A DNA stretch of 64,000 nucleotides from Sipunculus nudus (lineage: Eukaryota; Annelida; Sipuncula; Golfingiida; Sipunculidae): positions 50,135,340 through 50,199,339 of the forward strand of contig CM049322.1 in assembly GCA_026874595.1 (NCBI GenBank), in the 5' to 3' direction. The notes beneath the pieces were generated by a model that saw only the letters and a list, made by a program, of their open reading frames with translations, was not told the origin of the DNA and searched no databases. The position numbers and the translations under genes were made by a program. Positions within the stretch are counted from its first letter, which is position 1. Each line of letters opens with the position of its first letter. Below are positions 10,589 through 53,669 of the stretch, piece by piece.

Positions 10589-12568
10589 TTTATTTAAATA
10601 TTTCACTAGAAAAACATATGATAAAAAACATGAAAATAACTGGTTTGTCATTCTTCTGGTGATTTCTTTTTCAATTCCTTGCAAGTGCTAACTTTCTCAA
10701 GAGTTGATTTGGAAAGGTAGCCGGGCTTGAAATAACTCTGAGATATAATAGACTTATAAAAGCCTCTGGGATAATCCAAAATAAAAATGACTAAATGTTT
10801 TTTATAATCCTCTCGGTGTTATCTTTTAAACCATGCAAAATAGAGCTCATCAGATTTTATGGGTTTTTTTTCTGTTAGAAAGTGATTGTATATTTATATA
10901 ATTATGAACTTATAAACCTAAATTCGTATTTTCTCCATAAAAAAACCAACATTGAATATTACTTAGTTTTATTTTGGAATATGAAAGTTCAAAATACAGA
11001 AGGGCCTAGTTGTGAAATAATCATTGTAACAAACAATTCTTTCAGGAGTCTTTATCACACAGCTAACATTCACGCTGAACAGTGAAACTTTACATAGTTA
11101 AACAAACTCTATATCTTAAATACATTATAATCTGTTACCTTTGCTGCTGATTTTATATGTTTAACTTTACTAAGTGCCCACTGGTCATAATGCTCTAATT
11201 CTTATCTACTAAGGAGAGTTCAAGAGAACCTGTATATACACAATGTCTGAACAACCCAGGTCTAGCGATAGCGAGTTGTGCATTGATATATATCACACTG
11301 ATAATGGCAGTCTGTTATTCACCAAAAGAAACTTAAAAGTCTTAGATTATCTTTTTGCATTGTTCATAATCGCGAATAATGATGGAAAAATAGAAAAGGA
11401 AACTAAGAAATACCATTTCAGCTCTAGCCCATAATAATCGGCAAGCTACATATAGATTAAATTTTCTTACCATTAAGAAAAAAACCCCAGAAATATACCG
11501 CAGAAGATAGGTAAACATAAATGGTGCCATCTGTAGTTTATATACTCTTAAAAGTCACATGATCAATGTTTGGTAAAGCACATTACAAACTGTAGGTAAA
11601 ATCAAATATAAATTACAACACAATAAGCCAATATAAGTTTCACTACGCTAAGATAACGCTATCCCTCACATAAAAGCTATTTTTTTATTTCCTGACTTGA
11701 GTAGAAAGAACCGAAAAAAATTGACAATTTTCGATACTTGAAACTAACACTGACATACCAGTCATGGGATCATCGTGCTGGGAAACTGGTCAAAACATGA
11801 ATACAAACACTTGTGATCAACAAAGTTGAAATAAAATCTTATCTATAAAATCTTATAAGAAAAATCCTATAATAATTCAGCACACCTCATACGTATTTAG
11901 TCATCCTTTGATCATCCCCAATGAATAAGCCATGGAACGAAAAGAGTTTCTTGGCTTGCACAAGTAAGGACTACTTATAGCTCTCTAACCAATTACAAGT
12001 CCAATGATCAATATTACCACAGAACTTGGAGCTGACAGTTGCGGCAGTTCCTGCTGTATTTTGTTACGGACATAACGTTTTATCTGTCGACGTATTCTAT
12101 ATATATATAGGAGTATTTTTCTTAAGGATGAGGCCGAAGCGGGGGGGGGGGGGGGTCCATGAGGTCCGCTCCCCTCCCCCTTTCCAGTCGCCACAATTTT
12201 TTTTAAGAGTTTCAGACTAAGTTTTGTGTCCTGGACCACCCCCCCCCCCCGCTTCCGGACCTAGGGACATAAGAAAGTATAACTGTAGGTGCATACACCT
12301 ATTGATCATAAATGATACATCATTGATAAGATTATTTTGCTGGATATAAGTTTGGCATATAATATTGTATGAAGTAAATTTAAATAACCACTCCTTTGTT
12401 GTTTTATCTAGGGGTGAGTGTAACTATAAGAATGTATTAATTGAGCAGTATACACCCAGTGGTTATAAATATAGCATGTCATACTGAAACATATGGTTTA
12501 AGCTATCATTTGAGACCAAATTTAACTGTATACGTTTTGCATATTAAGTAGTATGGGGCTTATAACAA
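10589..12568. other. AT-rich arm sequence with G and C tracts, no gene recognised
   Basis: Matches 32,764-34,519 in reverse complement. A stretch of about 260 bp (12,169-12,427) that includes a C-run is absent from the other arm. G runs occur at 12,139-12,155. No coding region. Confidence 0.5.
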
Positions 12569-12830
12569 CACTCTAAAAACGGATTGGTTGAAACAGCTAC
12601 CAATTTAATTGGTTGAAGCAGATATTGGTTAAAATCAACCAAATATTGTTTGAGTAGAGCCCAGAATATTGGTTGACACCGACGGTTGCCCGCAAACTGA
12701 TAATCTGATACAAAGTAACATTTAGATTTGTTTCTGACACGGGGGCACGTGCGCGATTGCCTTTCCTTATTGGACGCTGCATAGGAGCTGTGTGTTTGTC
12801 CACGTGTTTTGTAGCGTCTTCTAGTTCAAC

Positions 12831-12918
12831 ATGGACAAATTTGTGAAGAAGATACTTGAAAAGTTGAAGTTGAAGCAGGAGCAAGGGACCTGGGTGTTTT
12901 TCACATGTCATATAAAGG
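12831..12918 (+). pseudogene. Exon 1 of a decayed gene carried by the CACTA-like element
   Basis: ATG at 12,831 (context TTCAACATGG) opens 29 codons plus one base: MDKFVKKILEKLKLKQEQG, then TWVFFTCHIK. The donor is G|GTAAGG (intron from 12,919), so the exon ends in phase 1. Joining that G to exon 2 (ATCCAG...) gives GAT CCA GAC (Asp-Pro-Asp) in the frame that stays open downstream. The N-terminus is short, basic and probably helical. Family not recognised. Confidence 0.6.
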
Positions 12919-13500
12919 GTAAGGCTTATTTTTCTGGTTAGATTTCACTGGCTTTGGTATTTAATTTGGCTGTAAAGTATTTTCAGAACTGACTTTAACC
13001 AGTGCATTTAGTTTTAAACCGACACGCTAAATTCATTGCCGTCATGATCGATTGATGATGTAAAAAACATTAGATCACTTCATTAGGATCCAATAACATC
13101 TTGCAAGTCATCCGATTCTAAAAATGTTCATATTCCAAAGAGAAAATGTTCTTTTATTTTTTTGTACCCTTCTTAATTTTTCTTATGAATATGAAGCAGT
13201 GTTTTGGTGTAAATAAAAATTAATGGCTGACTGTTCTGCGACAGGGAGCACGATACGAAGGGAAACCATGCATACTGTCAAATAGTGCGCATGCGCAGAC
13301 TAAATTTATTTGTTTGACAGATGTTAGAAGAAACATAGGCGTGGCCCGTGGGAACATCATTTCTTTAAAATATATATATAATATATAATCCTATAGGAAA
13401 TCTTTACAGAAGGACACTAACCTTGGGCCAAGTTGGCCCATACAAAATGTTTAAGAAAAAATAAAGAGATTTCAGGTAATTTTACACAATTAAAATTTAA

Positions 13501-13534
<34 letters not shown>

Positions 13535-13874
13535 GCATATGGGCAAAACTATTCCATTAAATTGCCCCCACCCCAACTTTCAATTTATGTGTGGGGTGTG
13601 TCTGTGTGTGTGTGTGGGGGGGGGGGGGGGGCCTTCGGTTCCAATGCCTTTAATATGTCATATGCCCCTTCTAATAAATATTTAAATGTTTAATATGAAT
13701 AGAAATTAAGTACAAATAAAATGAAATATTAAAAACATGTTTGTGTGACGTCACAGGAATATAAAACAAATATATTCCTTTATAAAATAACATTAAAACA
13801 GTAACATCTTCAAAAGATATTTTAAAGAATATATATTTATATATATATATGCTTTATAAGTATATACTAAATAA

Positions 13875-13916
<42 letters not shown>

Positions 13917-15079
13917 TTACATATATATATTATAGTGTATATATAATATTAATATGTGTGTTTATATATGTTTATATTGTCATATATAGTGTCTTTTCAC
14001 AGGCTTTCTTATTAATTGTTGGTGTGGTCCAATTTAAGTTTCATCATTTTACACAGCATGTTCATTTCTTTCGGGTCACCCTGTGTTCTGTGTGCAGGAA
14101 AACCCTGGCCGCTTGGAATAAAAGGGTCAAGGCCAAGAAGTCATGTGTCAGATAAAACCCAAATCATGTCTTTTTCAGTGCAAATGTAAACCTGACTCAA
14201 ACGACTTACAAGAATAATGATTTACTTACCTAGAACATGATCAAGGTAAGAGGAGGCAGGTTTTGCCTATATTTTATTGGAGACCCAACAGGATTTAATC
14301 CAATTCCAGTGAGAATATCAACTTGTCAGCTTCTCAGTGCCATACAATTTATTCCTTTCATTCTTTATCAGTGGAACTTGAACATCATTGCAGTGGCATA
14401 AGACCAGTTAAATAGTTACATGGGCCAACACACCTTTGGTGCAGAGAATACCAAGTGCGAGCGTACATGTTTGGTCTGAAAGAGCATGTCACGCATAACT
14501 GAGCAGGGGCTGAAGTGCTGGACATGCATGCACCGTCATGTTTTTTTTCATAAATTATCAAACATAGGTAGGGCAATTCAAATAAGGAAACTTACAACGG
14601 TATTAAAAAAATATACCGGTATGTGTATTTAATATATATATATATGTGTGTGCATGTGTATTATATATATATATATATATATATAATTATATATATATAT
14701 AATCACTTAAATTACAAGTTGGTGCAATATGACATGAAGCCTAGTTGTTTTCCAAGTGTGCACAATGTGATCAAAAATAAAAGGTTCCCCTTCTTCTATT
14801 AAACAGTACAAAATTGTTTTCCCCTTTAAAGAAAAAATGTTCCATTTCTTGAAAAATAGAATAACTCTTGGTAGTAAGTATTAAAACAGAACATTTCACT
14901 GGTAAAGAGGAAACTGTTATTTTAGTAGAAGTAGTTTTAATAAGTAGTTATTCTGACTTGTTTTCCTGCAAAAAAAATGCAAATTGAATCCCAATGAATC
15001 AGCTCTGCCTGGGGCCTGCTTAATACAGATTCATACGGTATATATAGTATTTCTGAGTACCGGTAATTTTATGTTACAG
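12919..15079. other. Putative intron 1 of the CACTA-borne gene, rich in TA microsatellites
   Basis: Holds (TA)n tracts at about 13,502-13,532, 13,877-13,916 and 14,630-14,703, and a G tract at about 13,616-13,631. A possible extra exon starts after TGTGTGCAG at 14,098 (KTLAAWNKRVKAKK), but it is not needed for the exon 1/exon 2 join and is only a weak candidate. Confidence 0.4.
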
Positions 15080-15229
15080 ATCCAGACACTGCCTCCATCA
15101 AGCTCGAGACCAAGTGGCTCCAGCATTAATATCAGAAACTGAGAGAGAGGATGCACGAGTACATGGCAGAGACAGGGTGTCGAGGTTACCCTGGATTTGT
15201 GGAGAAGAAGGCCCATGTTTGGATATAAA
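15080..15229 (+). pseudogene. Exon 2 of the decayed CACTA-borne gene
   Basis: The acceptor is TTTTATGTTACAG and the donor AAA|GTAAAT, giving exactly 150 bases (50 codons, class 1-1). The frame set by exon 1 reads DPDTASIKLETKWLQH, one TAA, then YQKLRERMHEYMAETG and CRGYPGFVEKKAHVWI, and a second TAA at the exon end. Both stops could be CAA-to-TAA changes. Composition and frame retention look like former coding sequence. No family recognised. Confidence 0.6.
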
Positions 15230-15300
15230 GTAAATGAGATATCTAAGGTTTGCTAATCCTGACAGCCAGTGGCGTCAATTTATCTTGAAGTTCCAGCACT

Positions 15301-15331
<31 letters not shown>
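15301..15331 (+). repeat. Long G homopolymer
   Basis: About 31 consecutive G, one of many such tracts in the window. Confidence 0.9.
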
Positions 15332-15335
<4 letters not shown>

Positions 15336-15649
15336 CAGACACACACATAAGGGTCTGTATGACACATTTTCTAAATCCTGGATCCGCCCTTGTATATGGG
15401 TAATTACTTCCTGATTTTCTATTAAAAAATCTATATTACAATCACCAGTCCTACCAGTGAAAATACTCTTTCAGATGATACTATAATCCCAATGGATCTT
15501 TAGGCTAAAGGTAAACAAGTTACTAGTGACGTGTTGCATGCATGATCCTGTTTACAATGTACAGATTCTTCAACCTGAGAATAACAAGTCTCCTACAATA
15601 ATAATATGAAAAGCCAGAGGCACCCAATCTTTTTCATCATGTAAATGAT

Positions 15650-17375
15650 CAGGGCCCGACAAAAATTTTTTTTGCTGACTAGCCCATGGGCTAGTCAAGT
15701 TTGATTTTTGACTAGCCCACAGAAAAATTTCACTAGCCCAGTATGTTTCAACAAAATTAAACTTAAAATTAAATATCATAAAAATAATCTGATGAAAATG
15801 AGACATTTTGGCCATGATGGCGTCCAGGGAATTCAAATAGACAAAATATGTGAATTCCTTTATACATGCATTCATGTTTGTGTCTTGTATTAACACTATT
15901 CATGAGATGTATTCATTTGTTTTGATGTTTGCAAAATAGTGAAAACAAGACCTTTATTATTAAAATTTAATGGTGTCACCAGTATTGAGAAAACATGAAA
16001 AATGTGTACCCCTTCCCCACCATCCCGGATTTAGAATTTAAAATTGCCCAAAATGTATCTTTTGATTACAAAAATGCAGCGTGCACCTCAAGGTTGCAGA
16101 GAAAATCTTGTCTCCTGATCTGCTCGTCGTTGTTTCCATTTTTTTTTTATTTTGCAATAAACCAGTTATCTTAAAATATCTCAACAGATTCATAACAAAC
16201 TGCCTTTGAGGTATTCAAAAATGTTCCTTGACTTATACAATTGTCAGTCTATTCTAAATCTTAATCTTGGCTGAAAATTGTTACTTTCTGGAATTTTCAA
16301 GAAAATATCAAAATATTTTCACCAATTACCTGTGATCATAATTGTTAATGTCATGTTCGTTGCCCCTATGCTCATTTGAAAATCTCGCTGGTCAACTGAA
16401 TTGATTTCGAAAAATTCGAAGGTACAACGTGAACATGTGCCCGTTTTGGATAAAAATAACATGAAAACAAGTGATTTTCGTTTTAAACTGAGGTGGGTTG
16501 ACGATCGGTGATCTGCCAGAGAAATCTCGTGACTCGTTTTGATCCCGTCGGCTGTCATGAAGAGCTCACGCAAAACAGATTGAATGGGACAAGTGGCTGT
16601 TCCTTTTACCGTACACTGCGCACAGCTGTTCAATTTAATTTTTAATAGATGAACAGGGAAGTACAGCACAGAACGGAACAGCTTACTGGAGCGCCACCGT
16701 GTGTTTGTTTAAGAGACTAAGTCCATGTTCTATGTGAAAACGCACGCAACCGCGTATTACATCGGATTTGTTCCCACTGGCAGTTTGACATTTTGGTCTC
16801 TACAGTTCATCAAATAGTAGAAATATTACTGCTGAAATGAATTGTGTTATTATATTATACTGTGTAAGATAAAACAAGCCAAATATCTTTGAATAACTTT
16901 TGAGACCAGCTAGCATAAAAGTCAGTACTACCAACCGTGTCCATCAACAAGTTCTGCTGCTGGCCTCGCGGTTCACTACAGGAAAAATGTCAAAGTTGAA
17001 AGAAAAGAAACTGCAGGGGACAGTATCGACGCTAATTGTAGCACGAAAGTGGTCCCAAGGAAGGTGGAAAGATGATATTCAGACATTTTGGCAGCAAGAA
17101 TTTTCACACATTTTGTCATCGAAATTTTGGCGCGAAGGAAAAATCGTTCGCGCAAGAAGCATTTTGCCTAACCTTCGCCGAATGAAACGATCCTCCTCGC
17201 AGTTGATCTGTTCAAATTTTAATGTCATTAGATCCCTGTTGGGGTTTTAGAGTGTGTGTAAGGATTAACTCGTTTATGACTAGCCCATCGGACTTACCAG
17301 CCTAGACTTTAGGGTAGTCCGATGGCGAAACTTGGGTAGCCCCGGGCGTCGGGCTATAGGGTTTGTCGGGCCCTG
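15650..17375. mobile_element. hAT-type non-autonomous element nested in the CACTA-like element
   Basis: The ends are CAGGGCCCGACAAA and its exact reverse complement TTTGTCGGGCCCTG. Flanks are GTAAATGAT (15,641-15,649) and TTAAATGAT (17,376-17,384), an 8-9 bp duplication with one difference. That duplication size and the CAGGG ends identify hAT. Subterminal palindromes of CTAGCCCATGGGCTAG type lie inside. The 1.7-kb interior shows no transposase. Part of it (about 16,300-16,690) is related to the interior of the element at 4,080-5,473. Confidence 0.85.
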
Positions 17376-17495
17376 TTAAATGATTTCATTATTTTACTTT
17401 GTGTAGGTGAATTCAAGGTTTTATATAATACCTGATCTATCAGTAAACTATTCCAAGCAAACTGATTCTTGATTTGGCTAACTTGACATTCATAG

Positions 17496-17663
17496 GTAGA
17501 GGGATACTTCTTTGGAATATATCTGGATGAGGAGGCATGATGGAGTTGATGGCTGAATGAGATGACATGGCAGCCATCCTGAAGGATAAGAACCAGGTGG
17601 CAGTGAAATACCCAGACAGCATGAAGATGTTAGCTGGTTTGAATTCATCTGAGCCAGCAGAAG
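17496..17663 (+). pseudogene. Exon 3 of the decayed CACTA-borne gene
   Basis: The acceptor ATTCATAG and donor AAG|GTAATC bound 168 bases (56 codons, class 1-1). In the frame inherited from exon 2 it reads RGILLWNISG, a TGA, GGMMELMAE, a TGA, then DDMAAILKDKNQVAVKYPD and SMKMLAGLNSSEPAE. Both TGA codons are what CGA would become by CpG deamination. The acidic, coherent peptide and preserved phase support a former exon. Confidence 0.6.
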
Positions 17664-17918
17664 GTAATCTTGGACCACCTTATAAGTAGCTGTATAGTTC
17701 TTTTTGAAATATTGTACATGATTTTAATCTGTCTGCTAATCAGTTGAGTACGGTGGTACAAGTTTCAGTATCTTGTCCATCTTCTGTAACAATCATGGCT
17801 TTCATGGCCCGTCCAAGACAAGCACACTACTTCTAGGCTATGATTTTAACTTTCCACCTCCCAGGTATAAATCATGTGTTCTACCTGTTAGACTACAGAA
17901 GCTGCCTAAATTTTTTTT

Positions 17919-18520
17919 AGCTCAGCTGACTATACGTTATCTGAGCTATAGTCATTGTCCATTGTCCGTCGTCTGTCCGTCTGTTAGATTGGCACATTTT
18001 GAAATCATTAGACCTATGAATCCAAAATTTGGCATACTGTTAGATGTCCCCAAAATCTCCTACCAAACCGGAAACTGGGTCACTGCGACTTCATTCCTTC
18101 GAGAAATTAAGGAAAAACCTCAGGTTTCCATTAAAAACCTACTATCACACTTCAGGACTGCCTTATATCAAAACCACTGATCTGTCTGTTTTTCTTTCTT
18201 AATATTTACCAGAAGTACTGGTATTCTCCTATATATTTTCCATATACATGCTGGAAATTAAGTCTTTTAGTGTAATTTCTTCAAGTTGTGGGCCCGAATA
18301 TAATTGACTTTGTAAATTAAAAATTCAGGAAATTTACTCACCCTGCATGAAAATTTTGGAAGGTAGTGACCTTTCGTTCAAGTATATAACTTTGTTTAAA
18401 TTAAGATTCAATTGTATACCCAAGATTAGATCTGAATTATTAAATTTTTTTAAATTATTAGCATAAAAATAGAATCAGTACCTTCAATTTGACCATGGCA
18501 CGGTTTTTTTTTTCCTGTGA
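17919..18520 (+). repeat. Dispersed repeat with an AGCTCAG hairpin end, copy 1
   Basis: Begins with the hairpin AGCTCAG...CTGAGCT (17,919-17,946), then GTCCGTCGTCTGTCCGTC, then a body shared with 44,850-45,425 (reverse orientation) and 21,106-21,440. Shared phrases include CCAAAATTTGGCATACTG and GTTAGATGTCC. The hairpin-at-one-end design suggests a Helitron- or Helentron-associated repeat, but this is unproven. Confidence 0.7.
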
Positions 18521-19453
18521 GTACTGTTGATTAAATTTTCACAGCATGTAAACTTAAGTATTTAATTTGTTTAAACCTGAAATTAGAAAATAAAAGCTAA
18601 AAATTTAGGCTAATAATTGAATTTTTTTTGTTCAGGCTCTTATTATAGTCACATGCTTTGTCCAGATGCAGGCAGCCCACTCCTGGTCACTTAAGTTAAG
18701 TTAGCTATGCCAGAGTTCCTCATTTGTTACAGGTCACTGGGGGAGATCCCCTGCTGTGACAGGTGTACAGTTATTCTCATATCAACTCCACCCTCCACCC
18801 CCCCCCCCCCCCCAACCCTACCCACCAAGTGTTATGCAGTAATTGTTATTGTTTGCCCTGTATTTCCTCAACTGTAATGCTGTTTCCACTCCAATATACA
18901 AAACTTTCCTTGAATGAGTAATTCATTGAGTAATCCAGAAGAAGCCATTTGGGTTAATGTAGCCTTTCTAAAGAAATGCCTTTCTAAAGAAATCAATTTC
19001 CTTTTAAATGATTTTAAAATATTAAAATTAAACCCATCAGTATGCATAAATTTATAAAAAATGAAGCAAATTACAGATAAATAAAGGCACAATTAAAAAT
19101 TGTGAAATCTGTATTATATGAAAGTATTATTTTTAGATATTTATTGTTTTGCAAATTTAAGAAATATATTTGTGTGGTTAAAAAAATAAATATGCATTTG
19201 TATGCATGATGTGGGGTTATCTGACAAGATTGAGATATATGATGATGCAATTTAGAATTATGAATTTACTTTTATATTCAGATATATATGTTACATTGGG
19301 AATGTATAGAAATATATACTTAAAATTAAAAAAAATTGATGTGATAAAAAAAATGAGGATCTAATACAAACATTTGTTCATTATTTTCCTGCCTCAGCAG
19401 AACTGGAGATCAGGCTTTGTTTGCCCTGTATGTATATGCAGAAGTGTTGTTAA

Positions 19454-19499
<46 letters not shown>

Positions 19500-20878
19500 C
19501 TACCATTGATTCCTTTGCACCTGTGCAAGTGTGTAAAATTTATTTCATTTAAAAAACAATTGGATTAGAAAAAATTAAGATCTAATTGAAACACATTCTT
19601 GCTTCAGGAGAATGGAACATAAAGTGATCAGCTCTGTCTGTCCATCATCTCTCTGTTATCATTAAATATATATTTATTATGATATTTTTCCTATAAAGCA
19701 CTGTTGAAATAACTTTCATATGCTGTATGTGTATGGATTTAAGCTATTAAAGTCTGAAATTTTAAAACAACTTATATACTCAATTGTGTAATATTTCAGA
19801 TGTTAAACTTTAAAAAAAAAAGATATAATAAAAAATTAAGAAATAATTGAAACATATATTATCAGTCTGTCCTTTTTTAAAATATAAGCAATTGTGAATG
19901 AACTTTTTTATTCTGTAAGCTTTGTTGATTTAAGTGAAAATCCTATGTCTATACACTTTGATAATACAGAGTTGTTGTTACTCCGATCATACCACCCCCA
20001 CACCACCACCAAGTCCTTACACCTGTGGACTGGGAACATAAGTTATATTTCAACTGTATACATTTAATAAAAAAAAAATACATATATTTAATAATATAAA
20101 AAAATATAAATAAAAAAATAGACCCAATCGAACAAATGTGTAAACTACTGTACTGTCATCAATTTATCAAAAAGCCAACCAATGATTATGGTAATAATAT
20201 ACATCTTATGTTCACAAACTGCTCACATGCTTTAATTTTAACATTAGAAAACACATGGTCAGGTCACAAAATATTATTTGCAACAATTTCTTACTCATCA
20301 ATACAAACCAATCATATCATCCAGCCATGGTCTATATTACCTCTTCTTATCAGACATTACCTCCATTTTCAGATTATTACCTCAAGGTCAGCTTCAGCTG
20401 AGCACTGTGACTGATGGATCCCTTGTTGTTTATACAGAGGTTCCAGATGGATTTTTTAAGAGTGACATGTATGTGCCTTTTTATAAATCTGCTCTCTTAC
20501 ATCTTTATATATGTATAATAAAGCTGATGTAATGGTCTCTTTTAAACCTGTTTCTGACTCATCATTAACATTTTAAACAGTTTTAAATGCATTTCATGGA
20601 GAAAAATGAATAATGGACACATTTAACTTTTAAATAGTCCCTTTATCAATCACTCCATATGACCACTCATGTGTTATGGTATATATATCTACAAGGAAGG
20701 TTATCAAACCAGTTTGCTTCAAAATCTTGACCACTGCATGATCAGCAGGATCATGATTTTCATAATGCCTGTGGACATTCCATGAAATTTGTTTATTGGT
20801 CGAGAAACTAATTTTTTCGTAGTAAATCTGTTATTGTCCTACAAGTTGACATTCTGTTATATTCCTGGTTTCTTTCAG
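18521..20878. other. Putative intron 3, with degenerate tandem copies of a 230-260 bp unit
   Basis: Phrases such as TTCAGCAGAA...GGAGAT...AAAGTGATCAGCTCTG recur near 19,390, 19,605 and, outside this interval, 22,675. A C homopolymer of about 42 bases lies at 19,456-19,498 and another at 18,798-18,814. An open frame at 20,278-20,532 has no recognisable product. Confidence 0.45.
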
Positions 20879-20992
20879 GTGCCATTAGTGCTATGATGCT
20901 TCGTTTACTGCCAAAACTGATTCCAGCGCAGGGGAAGAAATGCCAAGCCCACCATAGCAGAAGCAAAGGCAGCATTTATTGATATTCAGAAG
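20879..20992 (+). pseudogene. Exon 4 of the decayed CACTA-borne gene
   Basis: A strong acceptor (GGTTTCTTTCAG) and donor (AG|GTATAT) bound 114 bases. Entering in phase 1 from exon 3 gives AISAMMLRLLPKLIPAQGKK. After a one-base frameshift the natural reading continues AKPTIAEAKAAFIDIQK to the donor. The total over four exons is about 173 codons. Protein family not recognised. It could be a captured host gene or the element's own accessory ORF. Confidence 0.6.
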
Positions 20993-21105
20993 GTATATAC
21001 TGATTTAGGCTTTTAGATTCCTTACAATTCTAGAAATAAGAGCTATCATTCAATTGAGAATAATCGATATTGTGTTAAAGGGAATATTTATGTAGCACCA
21101 TTTTT

Positions 21106-21440
21106 AGCTCAGATGACTACCTGTATATACATTATGGTCAGATATAGCTATGGTCATTTGTCCATTATCGGTCTGGTTGTCAAGCTCGATCTCCGTTTAC
21201 ATGCCACGTTTCAAAACCACTGGGACCAGTGAATACAAAATTTGACATCCTGGTAGATGTCCTTATTTTCTAACAAATCTGAATATTAATTTAAGGAGAG
21301 AAACCTCCATTTTTTCAGTAAAAGCCAATTGTTGCACTTTAGAGTCAAAAATTGGGTCAAAATTGTACAATTTGTAGCAGTTATTTACCCAAATAAAATG
21401 TATCTTGTGAAAACATCAGGAAAGATATCGACTTACTTTA
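21106..21440 (+). repeat. Dispersed AGCTCAG-hairpin repeat, diverged copy
   Basis: Starts AGCTCAGATGACTAC and shares AAAATTTGACATCCTGGTAG and the following block with the copies at 17,919 and 44,850. Confidence 0.55.
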
Positions 21441-21469
21441 CATGATAGATGTTGAAGATAAGAGTCGTT

Positions 21470-21640
21470 ATAGCGTATAAGAGCGTATAACATATTTTTT
21501 TATAAAAAAAATTTTCAAACATATAACAGATTTTTTTATAAAAAAAATTTTCAAGCATATAACAGATTTTTTTTTTTAATTTTGTTCAAGCATATAACAG
21601 ATTTATATTTTCTAGCATATAACAGATTTTTATAATCTTT
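21470..21640. repeat. Short tandem repeat, CATATAACAGATTTTT units
   Basis: About five copies of a 35-50 bp AT-rich unit containing AGCATATAACAGATTTTT. Confidence 0.75.
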
Positions 21641-22330
21641 TTAAGTTATTGTCATAAAGGTAAAATCAGAACTTTAAATTTTGTCCAACCTTGGCCATTG
21701 CACATTTGCTTTCCTGTCAGCACTGTTGACATTTTGTATGTACAAAATGCAAAGATTAAAACTATTATAATATGAAAATTCGATAGCAATTTGTCAAAAA
21801 CTGTAGGACATTGTGATCTTTATTCTGTGAGATACGGGCCGAAAACATAATTTTGAGCAGCCTGAAAGACTGACAGGGCATATATTTAACCATTAGGCCA
21901 TTCATACTCAATATCTAGGGAGGTCTCCTTTGAATCCCTGAAGTTTGGACACTATGACTAATGTTCTGTCAACTCTAAGAAAGTACATGGTTTTAGCATT
22001 GAAATTCAGATAAGCAAAACAAATGGTTTGGAACTTTCTAACTTTGAAATTTTGGAAATTGGGCAAATCTCCATCACCTGAAATCATGTTTATGATGACC
22101 CATATTCTGTTGTATTTCTTCTTGTATTATTGTACAATTGCAAGATATGCACAGATCGACTAATTTAATATCCATTGATGATAGGTAGTCTATCATCATC
22201 ATGACAAACTGTTATCATGTAATTGCATGATTTGTCACTGTTTAGGTCTCGCCCTCTTGTACTTCCTTGTGCATGAAGTAGGCCTATATCACAAGCAGTT
22301 ATAAGGGGTTGGATTAAAATTGTGTGTGTG

Positions 22331-22335
<5 letters not shown>

Positions 22336-22378
<43 letters not shown>
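22336..22378. repeat. (TA)n microsatellite
   Basis: About 21 uninterrupted TA dinucleotides. Confidence 0.95.
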
Positions 22379-22382
<4 letters not shown>

Positions 22383-23317
22383 GAACAGTATTAACACCAA
22401 CACATATTTTCATCTTTTATTATTAATGTGCAATTTCATGTATTTTCATATCTAGAAATTCAGTTTCTAAATGTTTGATGAAGATCAACAGTGACTGAGT
22501 TCAGTGTTGCTGTGTTTCTCAGACACCATGATGCATGCAGGCATATGGAATGAAGACAGTCATCAGGGAACAGTATTGACTGTAGACTCTTGTTTCATCA
22601 TTTTATGAGTCAGGTATCCATGACACTGCACTTCCAGTGTACTTCAAAACATATGTTAATCATTTTCCAGCTTCAGCAGAAAGGGAGATAAAGTGATTAA
22701 CTCTGTTTGTCTACCCTGTCTATCTGTCCATTTTTAAATTATCAGTAATTGTGAATTCAATTTCCTGAAATTCAATTTTTAGCATTGGACTCTAGAATAT
22801 CTTACTTGTATATATATGTTTTTAAATGGAGGCTTGTGTCGCCAGTTGTGCAGTTACAAGTTGTGTACTGCATGCATGATTTAATTATATGTTACATTGG
22901 TTATTTTACTGGACTTATTAAACAATTATTTTTATAAATATAATGCTCTTGTTTTGTGTCTACCATTTCAGACAAAAGATTGATGTATGAATGCAAGCTG
23001 GTTATCAGAGCACTTGTACTGCCACACAGTGATATTCCAATTTCATTACATTTCTACAATCAGAGGAACAGCAGTATCCATGCAAAGTGCAAATTGTGTT
23101 TTATTTTGTTCATTTGACTGGCTGAGGAATATTCCTTGACATTACTTGGTACAAAGGTATATTTAATTTTTTTTCACCATGATATTTGAGCACACTGCAT
23201 CACAATTTTATGCAAGTTTTTTTTATGTTAGTTGTTTTCAGGCAATTGTGGCTGAATTCAACCTGCATTTTGTAACCATTTCATATTTTGCTAGGGTATT
23301 CAGTTGGGTTCCTTCTT

Positions 23318-23590
23318 AACCAATTTTCTTGGTTGATTTTAACCAATATGGTCATCTGAATCAAATTGGTTTGATTCAGTATTGGTTGTTTTCAACCATT
23401 ATTGTTGGTTGATTTCAACCAATCACATGGTTGATTTCAACCAGATCACATGGTTGATTTCAACCAAAAAAATTGGTTGAAAAATCAACCAATAGGGGAT
23501 CGGTTGAATCAACCGGTTAATTGGTTGGGACACATATCAACCGAGAAGACCCGGTTGATTTCAACCAATTTTTTGGTTGAATTTAACCGA
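23318..23590. repeat. Subterminal repeat array of the CACTA-like element
   Basis: At least a dozen copies, in both orientations, of a 17-18 bp near-palindrome of the form TTGGTTGATTTCAACCAA. They are packed within 270 bp of the right terminus. Subterminal repeats of this kind bind transposase in characterised CACTA elements. Confidence 0.85.
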
Positions 23591-23825
23591 TCCATTTTTA
23601 GAGTGAACATTAAAGTCGGTGTCCTAGCTGAAAAGGAAAAAAAATATATACGTCATCCGACATAAAACATCCATTTATTGACCGAAAGCTACCACTTTCA
23701 TACTGCTATCAGGCATTTTTATTACCTACACATGTATACCTGTCAAGCTATCAAGCACACATGGGTGAAAATTTGTCACCAAAATGGTACCAATGGTCCA
23801 AATTTTTGGGTCTAGCTGAAGTACT

Positions 23826-24487
23826 AACCCCCCCCCCCCCCCCATCGTGACAAACAATAATGAACGTTACTTAATATCACCCCCCCTTTTCTATATTGAC
23901 GATCAAAATGTATGTTGTTGAAGATCGTTCCCCCGTCATGACGATCATAAAGAATATTACTGAATATCATCCTCGATCCCCATCCCCCCCTCCATCCTTA
24001 CAATCATAATAAATGTTACTTGATAACCCTCTCCGGTCGTAACGATCAAAATGAATGTTATTGAATATCGTCCTCCTGTCGTGTCGAATCAAAGTGAATG
24101 TGCGTCCCCCATCGTGACGTTCATAATGAATGTAACCTGGTACACCCCTCCCCCCCACCCCCCCCCCCTCCCCCCCCCAGTCGTGATGATCATTATGAAT
24201 GTCACTGAATATCGCCCCCCCCCCCCATTGTAACGTTCATAATGAATGTGACCATGGAACCCCCCCCACCCCCCCCCCCCCCCGTCGAAACGATCATTAT
24301 GAATGTTACTGAATAGCGTCCTCCATCGTGACGTTCATGATGCATGTAACCCCGTCCCCCCCCCCCCCCCCCCCCCTTCCCGTCGTGATGATCATTATGA
24401 ATGTCACTGAATATCGCCCCCAATCGTAACGTTCATAATGAATGTAACCTGGTACCCCCCCCCCCCCACCCCGTCGTAATGATCATT
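23826..24487 (-). repeat. C-tract tandem array (mirror of 31,936-32,545)
   Basis: Units of about 60-65 bp each hold a long C run followed by a CGTCGTGACGATCATWATGAAT-like core. About ten units. It is the reverse complement of the G-tract array of the other arm. Confidence 0.85.
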
Positions 24488-25424: not shown

Positions 25425-25924
25425 NNNNNNNNNNNNNNNNNNNNNNNNNNNNNNNNNNNNNNNNNNNNNNNNNNNNNNNNNNNNNNNNNNNNNNNNNNNN
25501 NNNNNNNNNNNNNNNNNNNNNNNNNNNNNNNNNNNNNNNNNNNNNNNNNNNNNNNNNNNNNNNNNNNNNNNNNNNNNNNNNNNNNNNNNNNNNNNNNNNN
25601 NNNNNNNNNNNNNNNNNNNNNNNNNNNNNNNNNNNNNNNNNNNNNNNNNNNNNNNNNNNNNNNNNNNNNNNNNNNNNNNNNNNNNNNNNNNNNNNNNNNN
25701 NNNNNNNNNNNNNNNNNNNNNNNNNNNNNNNNNNNNNNNNNNNNNNNNNNNNNNNNNNNNNNNNNNNNNNNNNNNNNNNNNNNNNNNNNNNNNNNNNNNN
25801 NNNNNNNNNNNNNNNNNNNNNNNNNNNNNNNNNNNNNNNNNNNNNNNNNNNNNNNNNNNNNNNNNNNNNNNNNNNNNNNNNNNNNNNNNNNNNNNNNNNN
25901 NNNNNNNNNNNNNNNNNNNNNNNN
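25425..25924. other. Assembly gap, 500 N
   Basis: Exactly 500 N, a conventional placeholder for a gap of unknown size. It coincides with the inner end of the left palindrome arm. Confidence 0.99.
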
Positions 25925-29769: not shown

Positions 29770-30316
29770 GTCACGATGAGGAATAATATTCAGAGACAAA
29801 TAATGATCACCACGACCTGAGGGTGAAGATGTTCAGTAATGTTCGTCACGATGGGGACGAAAGGGGTGGGATGGTATTCAGCAACAGTCATTATGATTGT
29901 CACGATGAGTATGTGGCGGGGGGGGGGGTGGGGGTGATATTCAATTACATACATAATGATCGTCATGGGGGGGGGGATATTCAGTAACAGTCATAATGAT
30001 CGTAACGGGGGGGGGGGTATGATATTTAATAACATTCATTATGTGGGGGGGAGGGGTATTCATTAACATTTATTATAATCGTCAATATTGGGGGGAGGGG
30101 GGATGATATTCAATTACATACATAATGGTCGTCACGATAGGGGGAGGCGAGAGTGGGGGGGGGGGGGGGGGGGGTCCATATTCAGTAACAGTCATTATGA
30201 TCGACATGATGGGGGGGGGGGGGGGTGATATTCAATAACATTCATTATGATCGTCATGACAGAGTACGATATTCGGTAACATTCATTTTGGTTGGTATTC
30301 AGTGAGATTCATAATG
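29770..30316 (+). repeat. G-tract tandem array, inner part
   Basis: Units of about 50-70 bp with cores like ATATTCAGTAACATTCATTA, then TGATCGTCACGATG and G runs of variable length. Same family and orientation as 31,936-32,545. The two are one array split by the element at 30,317-31,931. Confidence 0.85.
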
Positions 30317-31931
30317 GGGTATTTCTACAAAAAAATGTCGCATTTCATGTCCCGAAACTATATTTGTTACTGAGAAATTAGCAAATGCTAAAAAATGACA
30401 TGAATAATCATTCAGATTGTTGCTAAAGATATAACCATTATTATGAGATAAAAGTATTTTTAAATCGGTGCAGAAATACATACAGAAAAAAAGCTGCAAA
30501 TGTTACAATACCCTTAAATTTCCGTTGTCCCTTTCTCTCGGATCTTAAATTCAAAACAGCGTTTTTCTGTAACCACTGTTCCATTTATATAGATTTTGTT
30601 TTCCCACGTTGTCACAGCGGTGAAAGTTTATTAAGATGATAATTTTGCTTGATTTTTCCTGACCGTCTTGTTTTTAATACAAAAAATTTGGATATAAAAA
30701 GTATGTCTCCCAAAATATACTCGGCACCGTTACCTGACCTTTTGACCTTGCAGCGTCAGTGAACAGAATTAAACCACTTTCCTGATGCAGGGGAGCAGCG
30801 TTTTATTAGAGTTCAGGATATTTTGTACACATGCATAATCCACAGATTAACTTTAGTAACTGTCATATCAGCGTTCCCTGTTAATCATGAAAGGGTTAAA
30901 AAAAATCACCGTATGTTTATTTGGACTCGACACCGTTACACCTGCGACAAATTAACCGTCACATATAACACTTCGAAAATGGCTTCCTCTTGTTGTTCAT
31001 GTAGTGATAATTCGTGCTGCCCTCTTAGGGACGGTATGGAAGTAATTTTTGTCCTGCATTTGACGTATAGATGAAAAAAATCTCAGCACCGTTACCACTC
31101 GAAACCGTTACCTGCATGAAAAATAACGGTATCGAGAGCAAGGTAACGGAGTCGAGAACTTGGTATTAAATCCAAATTATTGAAATAGAATTTGAAACAT
31201 ATTTTGGGCTAAATATTTTAAACATTTGCGTTTCTTCTATTCAACAGGCATTTGCTGGTTTTAATACATAATACTGGTATTCAAGCAGTCACAACGGTTA
31301 TTTTTACTTCAGAAGCTCGACTCGTTACTATGCTCAACACCGTTATCTATGCTCAACACCGTTACCTAGAGGATTTAAAACCATGTTTAAATTTTATTTT
31401 CTGTGCATTCAAAAAAATTAACAAGGTATTTCGACTCAAATTCTGAAGGTAGATGTACCAAAGTACCTTGTCCGGTAAATCCCTGCAAATGCACCCCTCT
31501 GGAAGCAAAAATAGGAGTAGAGACAATTTTTGTTTTCAAAAGTTAATTAAAAAGAAGAAAATATGTTCTTTTTACACACTTTTTTTTGTTAAATTCATAA
31601 CTGAAATTTATGTTTTTGATTTTATCAAAGGCTATTAATTTTAATTTTATCGAAAATCACAAAAAAAAAAATCTAGTCAAAACAATTTCTGAAATGTGCA
31701 AGTGAGATTTTACTGCATGTCACGGTGTGTCGAGAAAAAGGTTCATATATTTTCCCCTTACCTGGACTATTTATAAGAAAAGTAAACTGAAAAGTGCACT
31801 ATACTTGCATTATTTTTTACAATTCTAACGACATTTTTTTACATATTAAGTTTTGTTATATCTAAATCAAAGATTAAAAAAAAATCACCAAGAAAACCCT
31901 TGAAATGCGACGTTTTTCTGTAGAAATACCC
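30317..31931. mobile_element. Unclassified 1.6-kb element inserted in the G-tract array, 4-bp AATG duplication
   Basis: The terminal repeats are about 30 bp (GGGTATTTCTACARAAAAAY...). AATG flanks both ends (30,313-30,316 and 31,932-31,935), and the array consensus contains CATAATGATCAT as the natural empty site. The interior carries about ten copies, both orientations, of CTCGACACCGTTACC or close variants. No transposase recognised. A truncated copy lies at 24,488-25,424. Confidence 0.75.
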
Positions 31932-31935
31932 AATG

Positions 31936-32545
31936 ATCATTACGACGGGAGTGGGGGGGGGGGGGGGGTACCAGGTTACATTTCATTATGAACGTTACGA
32001 TTGGGGGCGATATTCAGTGACATTCATAATGATCATCACGACGGGAAGGGGGGGGGGGGGTTACATGCATCATGAACGTCACGATGGGGGACGCTATTCA
32101 ATGACATTCATAATGATCGTTATACGACGGGGGGGGGGGGGGTTCCAGGTCACATTCATTATGAACGTTACAATGGGGGGCGATATTCAGTGAAATTCAT
32201 AATGATCATCACGACTGGGGGGGGGTGTACCAGGTTACATTCATTATGAACGTCACGATGGGGGACGCACATTCACTTTGATCGACACGACAGGAGGACG
32301 ATATTCAATAACATTCATTTTGATCGTTACGACCGGAGAGGGGTATCAAGTAACATTTATTATGATTGTAAGGATGGAGGGGGGGGATGGGGATCGAGGA
32401 TGATATTCAGTAATATTCTTTATGATCGTCATGACGGGGGGAACGATCTTCAACAACATACATTTTGATCGTCAATATAGAAAGGGGGGGGGGGGGGTGA
32501 TATTAAGTAACGTTCATTATTGTTGTCACGATGGGGGGGGGGGGG
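31936..32545 (+). repeat. G-tract tandem array, outer part
   Basis: About ten units, most ending in 5 to 15 G after a CATTATGAACGTTACGATG-like core. Mirror of 23,826-24,487; run lengths differ between arms. Confidence 0.85.
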
Positions 32546-34752
32546 TTAGTACTTCAGCTAGACCCCAAAATTTGGACCATTGGTACCATTTTGGTGACAA
32601 ATTTTCACCATGTGTGCTTGATAGCTTGACAGGTATACATGTGTAGGTAATAAAAATGCCTGATAGCAGTATGAAAGTGGTAGCTTTCGGTCAATAAATG
32701 GATGTTTTATGTCGGTTGACGTATATATTTTTTTCCTTTTCAGGACACCGACTTAATGTTGTTATAAGCCTCCATACTACTTAATATGCAAAACGTATAC
32801 AGTTAAATTTGGTCTCAAATGATAGCTTAAACCATATGTTTCAGTATGACATGCTATATTTATAACCACTGGGTGTATACTGCTCAAGTAATACATTCTT
32901 ATGGACCTCATGGACCCCCCCCCCCCCCGCTTCGGCCTCATCCTTAAGAAAATACTCCTATATATATATAGAATACCGTCGACAGATAAAACGTTATGTC
33001 CCGTAACCAAATACAGCAGGAACTGCCGCAACTGTCAGCTCCAAGTTCTGTGGTAATATTGATCATTGGACTTGTAATTGGTTAGAGAGCTATAAGTAGT
33101 CCTTACTTGTGCAAGCCAAGAAACTCTTTTCGTTCCATGGCTTATCCATTGGGGATGATCAAAGGATGACTAAATACGTATGAGGTGTGCCTGAATTATA
33201 ATAGGATTTTTCTTATAAGATTTTATAGATAAGATTTTATTTTAACTTTGTTGATCACAAGTGTTTGTATTCATAATGTTTTGACCAGTTCCCAGCACGA
33301 TGATCCCATGACTGGTATGTCAGTGTTAGTTTCAAGTATCGAAAATTGTCAATTTTTTTCGGTTCTTTCTACTCAAGTCAGGAAATAAAAAAAATAGCTT
33401 TTATGTGAGGGATAGCGTTATCTTAGCGTAGTGAAACTTATATTGGTTTATTGTGTTTGTAATTTTATATTTGATTTTACCTACAGTTTGTAATGTGCTT
33501 TACCAAACATTGATCATGTGACCTTTAAGAGTATATAAACTACAGATGGCACCATTTATGTTTACCTATCTTCTGCGGTATATTTCTGGGTTTTTTTTTT
33601 CTTAATGGTAAGAAAAATTTAATCTATATGTAGCTTGCCGATTATTATGGGCTAGAGCTGAAATGGTATTTCTTAGTTTCCCTTTCTATTTTTCCATCAT
33701 TATTCGCGATTTTGAACAATGCAAAAAGATAATCTAAGACTTTTAAGTTTCTTTTGGTGAATAACAGACTGCAATTATCAGTGTGATATATATCAAGGCA
33801 CAACTCGCAATCGCTAGACCTGGTTGTTCAGACATTGTGTATATACAGGTTCTCTTGAACTCTCCTTAGTAGATAAGAATTAGATCACTGACCAATATAG
33901 ATTCAGCTGAGCATTATGACCAGTGGGGCACTTAGTAAAGTGAAACATATAAAATCAGCAGCAGAGGTAACAGATTATAATGTATTTAAGATATAGAGTG
34001 TTTAACTATATATGTAAAGTTTCACTGTTCAGTGTGAATGTTAGCTGTGTGATAAAGACTCCTTAAAAAATTGTTTGTTACATTGATTATTTCACAACTA
34101 GGCCCTTCTGTATTTTTGAACTTTCATATTCCAAAATAAAACTAAGTAATATTCAATGTTGGTTTTTTTTATGGAGAAAATACGAATTTAGGTTTATAAG
34201 TTCATAATCATATAAACATACAATCACTTTCTAACAGAAAAAAAAACCCATAAAATCTGATGAGCTCTATTTTGCATGGTTTAAAAGATAACACCGAGAG
34301 GATTATAAAAAACATTTAGTCATTTTTATTTTGGATTATCCCAGAGGCTTTTATAAGTCTATTATACTCAGAGTTATTTTAAGCCCGGCTACCTTTCCAA
34401 ATCAACTCTTGAGAAAGTTAGCACTTGCAAGGAATTAAAAAAGAAATCACCAGAAGAATGACAAACCAGTTATTTTCATGTTTTTTTATCATATGTGTTT
34501 CTAGTGAAATATTTAAATAAGGCCCCATGAGGATGCAAATATTTTCGTCATTTTTGACAACGCCTCATTGCTGACAAGTATCGTGTCACTTCAAATAAAC
34601 CCATTAGACCTTTTAATAAGTTTCTTATCTCTCCAACGACACCTACCATGTGTGTGAAATATTCCGTTATAACCCAATATATTCGTATATTGTTCTGCAT
34701 GTATGGGAGATTTCTGCCTGCGGTCGGCTTGCTGACTGTATGCGGAGATACG
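32546..34752. other. Right-arm sequence, no gene recognised
   Basis: Matches 9,030-9,256, 10,588-12,568 and 23,606-23,830 in reverse complement. The uninterrupted site of the CACTA-like insertion is at 32,755-32,770, and the deletion junction is at about 34,519. No coding region. Confidence 0.55.
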
Positions 34753-38435: not shown

Positions 38436-39553
38436 TTTTTACATACAATATCACATCACTTATAAAATAACAATATCACATCACCAATTTGTATAAAAGT
38501 TCAACTTTAAGTTAAAATGCGTGGGTTTGTCAATTACGGTATTTTGAACATTTGAAAAATAAGACAGGTTCCGACCTTCGACTTCCAAATATTATTTACT
38601 GCCTGCCTTTGACAGCTGGCAGATACTCTCCGTATTTTCACCGATCCTTCTGAGTTTTAATAGCCATCATCGCCACATTCACATACATGTACATAAACCT
38701 GGCGTACACATGTCAACAATAGAAATCTATATGGATCACATCGACATACCCCAGAACTATAGGACATATCTGTGTATAACTAGAACAAGCGCTTAACACG
38801 GTGAGTGCATGACGCTGAAATTGCATGTACACCCAAATGTTGTGTGTAGAAAATGATTCTTGACTTGAATATACTGACTCAGTAACTGAGATCTGATCCC
38901 AGAATATAATAATAACCCCCCCCCCCCCCGCCGATGACGAAATAAATTGCATAACCGGAAACCCGGTTGGCTCCACTATAAAAACCGGGCTACACCCAAA
39001 ATCATACTAAGGCAAGGCTAATTCATAAAAATAACGTCTCTTGGTCTTTTGAAATGTATTACATGATAAATGAACAACATATACACATCTACCTTCATGG
39101 TTCATGTTACATCTTTCCAAATATCCTGTCAACACCGATCTTGTCGGTCGGCATTAAATAGAGTACGGCTACTGTAGTCATGAATTAATGAGACCTTAAA
39201 TGACATCAGGTAGCCCATACATATCGTAACTACACCAATAAACCCTTCACGGAGCCGGAGACTTTCTGTTTACTTGGCTTTATCTTTTATTGACGGAGAG
39301 GAGTGATTATTCTGTGAATCTGTTGACAAAATACTTACCCTTGATTATTGTTTACCGTACAAAAAAGCACCGAATATTTTTTCCTCTAAAAATAAATCAT
39401 ACTAAACTCTCCCAATAGAGGGCAGCACAAGCGATAGGTTATTTTAAACTCCCCCTGATTTTTTGTTGTTGATATTAGAATGATGATAATAATAATAATT
39501 ATAATAATAACACAATATATAGCCCCATACCTTATATATCAGGTGCACTTTTC

Positions 39554-39645
39554 ATAGGCTCTGGACCGTTTTCAAAAGTGTAGGGCGGGGCGCATTCGGG
39601 GGGGGGGGGATTGTATATATATATTTATATATATATAAATATATA

Positions 39646-39678
<33 letters not shown>

Positions 39679-40310
39679 TAATGAGGGGGCGCATTCTGCA
39701 GGTGTAGCCAGATTTAGGGCGAGTAAGCGCATGAAAGCGACTGGGAGTGGCAGGGGGTATCCCCCTGATACGGTTTGGAAAAATTGAATTAAAAAAAAAA
39801 CAAAACAAAAAAAACATGTATTTTCAATGCAATATTTTGACCATTCTCTGACTTTTAATCAAATGCTGCATCACACGAAAAATAACAAAATATTAAATAC
39901 TGAATTTACATATAATCATGTGAACCAAAGTAATAATATTCATACCCTAATTAATATGGTCTTCTTCAAATCTTAAGAAATATTCAGATATTATACTTGG
40001 TTTTTAACATTACTTAAAACCGTAGGCGTGCAACGGTATAAAACACGAAACAAACAGAGGCATACTTTAAGGCAAAGGACATACCATTTCACTCAAATGA
40101 ATTGCATTTTTAATTCCTTTATCTATAAAAATACACAGTTATGACCTATATAACTAAAAACACCAAATAACTTGTGTCCCATTTTTTTTGTATCTGAGGA
40201 TGTAGATTGAGAAGAAATACAGTGGAATTTAACTAATTTCTCAAAGAAAGATCACACTAACCACCACCCTTTGACCAAAAAGTGCCCCCTCCCCCGGCTT
40301 CAAAGCCTAT
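39554..40310. mobile_element. Second ATAGGC-ended element
   Basis: ATAGGCTCTGGACCGTTTTC at the left end and the reverse complement of ATAGGCTTTGAAGCC at the right end, each followed by G-rich stretches and, at the right, CACTTTTTGG. The pattern is as in 34,753-36,350. Contains a (TA)n tract near 39,614-39,680. No exact target duplication found. Confidence 0.45.
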
Positions 40311-40343
40311 ATGCTTTTACAGGGGATCTCATAAGATGCAATA

Positions 40344-41952: not shown

Positions 41953-43012
41953 GTTTCTTTGTTAAAAAATATAGCCTGATCCCCAGTTAGCACAAACATT
42001 TTGTGAAACTGTTAAGAAACTGTTCTTAAAATTTTTCCAAACAGTATGTGGCTTAAAAGTGTAAAATTAAAGATGTTTTCCGGAATCATATAAATTAATA
42101 ATAGAACAGAAATATTTCCTTCCTACATAAATTATTTTGATTAAGCTAAAATTAAAATTTAAAGATACTGTTATAAACTATATCAATGTTTTTGAAACAT
42201 CACATGCCTTATTTTCAATCTTTCATAGTTATGCAGTTTTACCTTTTTTTAATTTTTGAAATATTTTGAAAGTGTTTTTATAATGTTTTAGGCAAATTGT
42301 TTGTGCAATGTTCCATATAGGCCTATACGTTAGGCGATCAGTATTCAGCAAGCCTTGGAGAGTTATATGCGTTGAATATATAGCACCCTATAATGCATGG
42401 ATAAAAATAAGTTTCATTATTTTTGTATGTAGTACCTTAATGGATATAAAAAATAGTTTTATTAATACAAAACCTAATAGACATTAAATTATTTTGATAA
42501 AATTACGAAATTTTAAATGCTTTTATATTATATTTATGAAATAACATTCGATATTAAAATATTACGTCACAATATGATATATAATGTATTACATTTGAAT
42601 GTACATTTCAACATTTATTTATTTATTTTTTTTATATTTTATATATCATTATGTTATATTAGTTATATACATTATGATTTTATTCAAAATCATAAATATT
42701 ACTTAAATTTAAATTTGGAATGATGCAAGACTTTTTCTGTGTCATTGTTGGTTGGTGCTATTGTCTAGATTTCCGCATTTTATGCATTTTGAACATCATC
42801 TGTCACTTCAGGATGACTTCCGAGAGGCTTCCGACGCATAAAAAATGCTTTAATTTTCATATATGGGAATATACGTTTGTGAGACTTTCCGGTTTTACCA
42901 AGGGGGCCGATATCTTCAATATTAACAAAAAAGTCTTGGTATGATCGTCATTTTTTTTTTAATTATACCAAAAATTGAAATGGCTTCCGACTTCCGAGTT
43001 TTATTTATTGCC
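41953..43012. other. AT-rich spacer after the forward array
   Basis: About 1.06 kb, very AT-rich. The last array unit breaks off in CAGTACGGTTTCTTTG. No gene or RNA recognised. Confidence 0.5.
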
Positions 43013-48147: not shown

Positions 48148-48154
48148 CATGTTA

Positions 48155-53668: not shown

Positions 53669-53669
53669 T

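Follow-up and report, generated by a model that had tools for sequence, protein, structure and literature searches.

A probably non-autonomous DNA transposon family of Sipunculus nudus with a probable gene relic near one end

Short repeated motifs near the ends are a trait of CACTA transposons. Plant CACTA elements are reported to duplicate 3 bp of their target (PMC4158355), and TRC elements (SmTRC1 and its relatives in animals and fungi, which belong to the CACTA superfamily) 2 bp (PMC1636069, PMC4298943). Transposons with additional genes have also been described: Kolobok carries KolX (PMC9587614), and the enlarged En/Spm elements of Chondrus have 4-5 ORFs (PMC6431247). We analyzed a stretch of 64,000 nucleotides of the Sipunculus nudus genome (contig CM049322.1, hereafter the window), where a first-pass annotation had proposed a decayed four-exon gene inside a CACTA-like transposon.

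The window contains a transposon copy of 11,037 bp with exact ends (12569-23605, + strand), which encloses all four exon-like pieces. Its limits are given by the empty site that lies at 32757-32760 (- strand), within the second, inverted arm, by terminal inverted repeats (TIRs), and by 19 long genomic copies that align out to the same ends wherever the fetched stretch extends that far. The empty site holds a single AA and the element is flanked by AA on the left (12567-12568) and on the right (23606-23607), indicating precise insertion with target duplication. The left TIR, which begins with CACTCTAAAAA (12569-12594, + strand), and the right one (23580-23605, - strand) are identical in their outermost 11 bases and match at 21 of 26 positions overall. 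They are adjoined by subterminal GGTTGA/TCAACC repeats, at 12586-12676 on the left and 23331-23580 on the right: counting both strands, GGTTGA occurs 4 times in the left 300 bases, 16 times in the right 300, and 3 times across the whole interior. The element is a mobile DNA transposon, given the empty site in the inverted arm and the presence of 2-bp duplications in all eight copies with both ends read (seven elsewhere and the one in the window). The possibility of a gene with an adjoining transposon was rejected, because the empty site places all four exons within the mobile unit. Intron 2 of the window copy, and of this copy only, contains a nested hAT-like element with CAGGGCCCGAC ends (15650-17376, + strand): in each of the 19 long copies, 15649 runs directly into 17377, and the 8 bases by which the two sides overlap correspond to the 8-bp target duplication of the nested insert. 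The two arms of the window, which lie within 3284-53669 and may represent either a true inverted duplication or a pair of haplotypes set next to each other, differ at 183 of 7,031 sites (2.6%), and searches of the window for Rfam families and tRNAs gave no matches.

The exon-2 region (query 15000-15500) has at least 40 copies in the genome, including the one in the window, and the other 39 are 90-98% identical to it. This count is a lower bound, as it corresponds to the 40 matches scored out of 61 candidates. Full-length reading covered 19 of the 39 copies outside the window, and at seven loci the copy could be followed from end to end, with sizes from 8,745 to 9,517 bp. The target duplication is TA in six loci (L009, L016, L017, L019, L025, and L026, although at L017 a surrounding TA run weakens the evidence of duplication), CA in L013, and AA in the window. 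The family has moved recently, since L016 and L017 occupy separate sites, on different contigs and with different flanks, and yet are only about 0.2% divergent (0.23%). We regard these copies as probably forming a family of non-autonomous DNA transposons of about 8.7-9.5 kb without the nested insert, where the term non-autonomous is based on the 40 or more places, on the seven copies with both ends, and on a domain scan of the window copy.

The decayed, gene-shaped structure described by the first-pass annotation lies wholly inside this transposon, is also borne by other copies, and its coordinates hold. The four pieces are all on the + strand: the first (12831-12918, 88 bases) starts from an ATG, 262 bases inside the left end of the element, and has 29 open codons plus one base; the second (15080-15229, 150 bases) has two in-frame TAA; the third (17496-17663, 168 bases) has two in-frame TGA, which brings the stops of the chain to four; and the fourth (20879-20992, 114 bases) has a frame break near 20941. 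Beyond it, the structure ends without a recognisable terminus. All seven borders are canonical (GT or AG), as had been reported. When they are ranked with a generic weight matrix among all such sites of the element, four stand higher (exon-1 donor, 3 of 624 GT; exon-4 acceptor, 1 of 558 AG; exon-3 donor, 12 of 624; exon-4 donor, 30 of 624) and three are mediocre (exon-2 acceptor, 48 of 558; exon-2 donor, 53 of 624; exon-3 acceptor, 69 of 558). The three junctions are in phase 1 in the frames originally assigned, but these phases are not secure, as exon 2 and the head of exon 3 score better in other frames. An alternative, stop-free frame of exon 2 outscores the assigned one (12.9 vs 8.5), and the first ~40 bases of exon 3 look more coding-like in another frame (5.5 vs -2.0). 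Hence, a second frame break is likely, in addition to the single-base shift that had been considered the only one.

The exon-like structure exceeds what is expected by chance only moderately. Codon score alone stays within chance, the best segment of the element scoring 19.9 when the best segments of 100 shuffles average 16.2 and reach 29.2. When exons are chained on the + strand with stops tolerated, the score is 27.4, where none of 100 shuffles exceeds 19.4, and it rises to 40.3 when weaker splice sites are admitted (shuffle maximum 29.9, n=100). With a higher exon cost it is 15.4, a value reached by one shuffle in 100. Among 14 other strand-stretches of the window, the score of the element is matched by one in the base setting, and by none and one in two variant settings. 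The best-scoring chains differ from the four-exon model: the one scoring 40.3 has 11 exons and includes exons 1-3 with both borders, entering exon 2 in a different phase and using another acceptor for exon 4, and the one scoring 27.4 begins within exon 3. The 156 codons up to position 20940 contain 4 stops, where resampled chains have 9.9 on average (P 0.024; P 0.085 for the best of three frames). One may ask if this is a gene at all, or a fortuitous series of open frames and sites resembling splice signals, in transposon DNA without coding function, that transposition has multiplied. The codon score, the competing frames of exon 2 and the head of exon 3, the modest stop depletion, the lack of selection in the family, and the lack of a homolog in the collections searched are all in line with this reading. 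We nevertheless find it rather unlikely, since two of the three settings give an exon-chain score higher than any of the 100 shuffles, the donor of exon 1 and the acceptor of exon 4 rank near the top of all sites in the element, and G+C content is higher in exons 1-4 (0.386, 0.487, 0.458, and 0.456) than in the three introns (0.317, 0.383, and 0.325), with the smallest excess in exon 1.

The first stop of exon 2, the first stop of exon 3, and the frame break of exon 4 are common to all 19 long copies. The second stop of exon 3 is present in 18 of them and that of exon 2 in 15, the other four being shifted by an indel. None of the 19 has an intact reading frame, and a genome-wide search for stop-free exon-2 or exon-3 matches found none among the 150 scored of 312 candidates, where exon 4 has no entry. 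Because the copies share the same stops and frame break, the exon structure had in all likelihood been disabled by the time the family amplified, or had never been coding. Decay after the insertion in the window was also considered and rejected: the divergence between arms leads to an expectation of about 0.26 stops, against the four that are seen, and other copies have the same lesions. Compared in pairs, the copies differ by 0.0241, 0.0187, and 0.0215 at codon positions 1, 2, and 3, and by 0.0263 in the 40-base intron flanks. The differences are about even across codon positions and introns, and lack the third-position excess expected of a selected coding gene. Among the pieces that diverge more, position 3 varies most in three of seven for exon 2 and in none of seven for exon 3. 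The divergence of the family is near-neutral. Given the shared stops and the lack of concentration of differences at third positions, the initial suggestion of a real protein of this transposon group is not upheld.

The 17 other copies that extend to exon 1 all have it open, although one of them (L014) has lost the ATG, and all scored genome matches over its residues 1-31 are free of stops. This is what one would expect if the structure still had a functional product, either the spliced transcript acting as RNA or a short peptide or regulator made from exon 1 alone (~38 codons before a stop is met). Such a product is very improbable, since chance alone keeps 30 codons open in recent copies, the divergence of exon 1 from the window copy (2.67% of sites) is as high as that of most introns or higher, and L016 and L017, which are among the youngest copies, have lost an exon-3 acceptor.

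Homology searches gave no relatives other than copies of the same element among the 150 scored of 312 genome candidates. Against Pfam, the spliced read-through and three exon pieces matched only Poxvirus_B22R (E 0.1, 12.6 bits for a cut-off of 25), which we take as chance; a translation of the window element in all six frames, with X in place of stops, had no domain above the cut-off and no transposase domain; the alternative frame of exon 2 and three further open stretches had no match. Three PDB matches (E 0.19-1.5) were judged to be chance. Pattern stretches were found in viral contigs (7, then 4 in a second search) and in contigs of prokaryote genomes (33), none of which was confirmed, and the TIR pattern had zero occurrences in either set. 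Phage records gave no match at E up to 1. We found no description of the element in the literature, though one may be in print. A possible resemblance of exon 4 to transposon-associated "SAMD3-like" fish proteins served as a lead only; a literature search on this likeness listed nothing relevant. Within this scope, with only copies of the same element as relatives, the outcome is the absence of homologs that the first-pass annotation had itself regarded as contrary to its proposal, and the intact homologs it envisaged, in other copies or at a host locus, did not appear for exons 2 and 3. These searches also bear on the idea that the ancestor of the element captured exons and introns from a host locus, which then decayed before amplification. 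The introns and splice sites do resemble a piece of a genomic gene, the structure stops past exon 4 without a recognisable end, and it has no Pfam domain typical of transposases. Yet, no host locus is found among the 150 scored of 312 candidates, even if the parent may be too divergent or among the unscored, and the ATG is near the left end, as expected for a gene of the element itself. We therefore see capture as an unlikely origin.

Taken together, the best explanation, which we consider probable, is that 12569-23605 is a copy of a non-autonomous family with a four-exon gene relic near its left end; by the time the family spread, the relic had been inactivated or had never encoded a protein. 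The copies would have been mobilised by a transposase supplied from another place in the genome. This enzyme would recognise the CACTCTAAAAA ends, and probably also the adjoining GGTTGA repeats, and would excise the element and reinsert it with a 2-bp duplication, mostly of TA, by cut and paste. The genome has seven Transposase_21 places, but they were rejected as proven partners because none of the seven matches has CACTCTAAAAA ends within 3.4 kb; at the three of seven extended so far, these ends are also absent within 9.9 kb. We favour a relic derived from the 5' portion of a gene that belonged to the autonomous ancestor of the family, because the ATG is 262 bases from the left end. As to origin, such an own gene is slightly better than an even bet, chance or non-coding structure is considerably less likely, and a captured host gene a little less likely again. 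The lack of an autonomous partner, the full-length reading of 19 of the 39 other copies, the third-position maximum in three of seven divergent pieces of exon 2, the open exon 1 in 17 of 17 copies, and exon-chain scores above those of shuffles are points against the best explanation, and the last two could hint at a longer-lasting function. TnpA of maize Spm binds subterminal repeats. By analogy, the four exons might be the relic of a new accessory protein of this lineage, possibly a GGTTGA-binding helper, of which an autonomous partner, either here or in the genomes of relatives, would retain an intact version that moves the dead copies in trans, a scenario that we find improbable.

If the best explanation holds, this offers a clear example of a large family of transposons that amplified with an intron-containing gene which had been disabled beforehand. 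Identical stops recur from one copy to the next, and therefore conserved exons and splice sites at many loci do not imply a functional gene family. Dozens of false "uncharacterised" genes could arise from the family when gene prediction is applied to this genome. Should an intact version of the protein turn up, it would identify the missing helper or transposase of the family.

The terminal sequence of the window element may resemble that of animal EnSpm families (Repbase) with CACTRTAAAAA-like ends. The CACTA-like assignment made initially stands in part: the element is a TIR transposon with subterminal repeats, but it departs from strict CACTA (En-Spm) elements in having CACTCTAAAAA ends that read CACT and then C, a 2-bp duplication, and no Transposase_21 or other DDE transposase in the six frames of the window copy, although a non-autonomous copy needs none. 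It shares with plant CACTA (En/Spm) elements the CACT ends, the short motifs near the ends (here GGTTGA), and, presumably, non-autonomous copies moved in trans. It differs from them by a fifth terminal base that is C instead of A, by the window element having no detected transposase, and by the duplication of 2 instead of 3 bp (PMC4158355). TRC elements have in common with it a TIR transposon in an animal-type genome, the 2-bp target duplication, and the terminal C; they differ in having ends that begin with CCC instead of CACTC (the TIR core here is CAC) and in encoding Transposase_21, not found here (PMC1636069, PMC4298943). Like Kolobok with KolX (PMC9587614) and the En/Spm of Chondrus (PMC6431247), it is a transposon with a gene other than a recognised transposase; the genes there are intact and the elements autonomous, whereas here a dead relic is found in a non-autonomous family. 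Overall, this looks like a fairly ordinary transposon family with a gene relic inside.

The transposon copy that holds the four exon-like pieces has its exact ends at 12569 and 23605 (11,037 bp). The terminal bases are identical at both ends over 11 positions and at 21 of 26 overall, and GGTTGA/TCAACC repeats cluster there, with 4 and 16 per terminal 300 bases and 3 in the interior. Comparison of the window with itself revealed that 3284-25424 recurs inverted at 53669-31004, a repeat missing from the first-pass annotation, and that this second arm lacks the element. The empty site shows that the element arrived with a 2-bp duplication, AA. Pieces of the two arms are 92-99% identical, with 2.6% substitutions over 7,031 compared sites, and the first arm stops exactly at a 500-N gap (25425-25924). 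Either the region was duplicated in inverted orientation not long ago, or the assembler set two haplotypes side by side. Around 12 kb (38956-51197) is confined to the second arm. It includes two inverted tandem-repeat arrays, at 40329-41953 and 46405-48157. It also encodes, on the minus strand, an ISXO2-like (Merlin-type) transposase split into two open pieces (49331-50191 and 48905-49303), the latter matching PF12762 (E 4.9e-18). Both arms have tandem repeats rich in poly-G/poly-C, with ATTCAATAACA..CATAATGATCGTAACG-like units (23831-24487 and 29863-32543).

The exon-like pieces total 520 bases (12831-12918, 15080-15229, 17496-17663, and 20879-20992). These positions agree with those of the first-pass annotation, every border being GT or AG. 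Of the seven splice sites, three score strongly and the rest are ordinary. Whether the structure stands above chance depends on the measure used. The codon score by itself gives no excess over chance for the element. Its stop-tolerant exon chains score higher than every one of 100 shuffles under two settings, and higher than 99 of them under a third, but under two of these settings the score is also reached elsewhere in the window, and the best-scoring chains differ somewhat from the proposed exons. The frames of these exons are not as tidy as claimed: exon 2 has an alternative frame, free of stops, that scores higher, and the start of exon 3 also scores higher in another frame.

We searched the genome (1.43 Gb, 153 contigs) for copies of the element. 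At least 40 places, that of the window included, resemble 15000-15500 (40 scored of 61 candidates), and among these scored matches the other copies are 90-98% identical. We read 19 of these 39 other copies, 8-10 kb each, and all match the element end to end as far as the fetched stretches reach. Seven stretches contain both ends (element lengths 8,745, 8,863, 9,373, 9,448, 9,483, 9,506, and 9,517 bp), with target duplications of TA in six and CA in one. A hAT-like insert in intron 2 (15650-17376), with CAGGGCCCGAC ends and an 8-bp target duplication, is found only in the window copy and is absent from all 19 others.

All 17 other copies that extend to exon 1 have it open, one of them having lost the ATG. 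In all 19 long copies, exons 2 and 3 have their first stop and exon 4 its frame break; the second stop is found in 18 copies for exon 3 and in 15 for exon 2, the remaining four being shifted by indels. An additional 4-base insertion in exon 3 is common to five copies, and the exon 3 acceptor is missing in two. Among eight further pieces with 90-98% identity to the window, exon 2 has its first stop in 6/7, and exon 3 has its first stop in 5/7 and its second in 7/7. A protein search of the genome with the exons, in which 150 of 312 candidates were scored, gave no match to exon 4 and no stop-free match to exons 2 or 3, counting any stop inside the matched stretch, not necessarily the same ones, and with some stretches exceeding the exon. 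Between copies, differences per site are 0.0241, 0.0187, and 0.0215 for the first, second, and third codon positions, compared with 0.0263 for the flanking intron sequence; divergence from the window copy is 1.5-3.6% in exons and 0.7-3.7% in other parts of the element. Codon position 3 varies most in 3/7 of the further pieces for exon 2 and in 0/7 for exon 3. In the ancestor from which the copies read descend, the relic was already dead or had never been coding.

The copies have nevertheless moved recently, as two of them (L016 and L017) differ by ~0.2% and lie on separate contigs with unlike flanks. Two others, ~1.3 Mb apart on one contig (L019 and L021 on C15), are close in sequence and have an identical right flank, which may reflect a duplicated region or an assembly duplicate. 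Since the relic was disabled or non-coding ancestrally and copies moved recently, we infer that the family is mobilised in trans, without a product of its own. Transposase_21 occurs at seven places in the genome, four of them stop-free with frames of 549-973 residues, but the CACTCTAAAAA ends are absent from the surrounding sequence read at all seven, and no partner was found. Three open frames (L035, L036, and L037 on contigs C5, C12, and C8; 897, 549, and 973 residues) lack recognisable CACTCTAAAA ends and are possibly domesticated or differently ended elements. Short pieces of a dispersed repeat of the window (17914-18584, 44741-45430, and 53663-53735, the two long copies ~71% identical) also lie near the Transposase_21 loci L028, L033, and L034.

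The four-exon structure has no relative in Pfam, PDB, viral contigs, prokaryote genomes, or phages. Because its ATG is 262 bases from the left end of the element, we lean slightly towards a remnant of the transposon's own gene. As a gene, it mostly loses interest; what remains valuable is a clear example of lesions common to many copies and a pointer to a putative autonomous partner of the family. The family itself is large, non-autonomous, and active until recently, has TIRs, and carries a dead passenger gene, a kind already known. The first-pass term CACTA-like is reasonable in the sense of working like a CACTA. However, the element is not filed as one in the strict sense, since its ends read CACTC, its duplication is of 2 bp, whereas that of plant CACTA is of 3 bp (PMC4158355), and a six-frame domain scan found no transposase in it, nor any other domain above the cut-off. 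The 2-bp duplication resembles that of the animal TRC branch (PMC1636069, PMC4298943), whose ends start with CCC, whereas those of the element start with CACTC.
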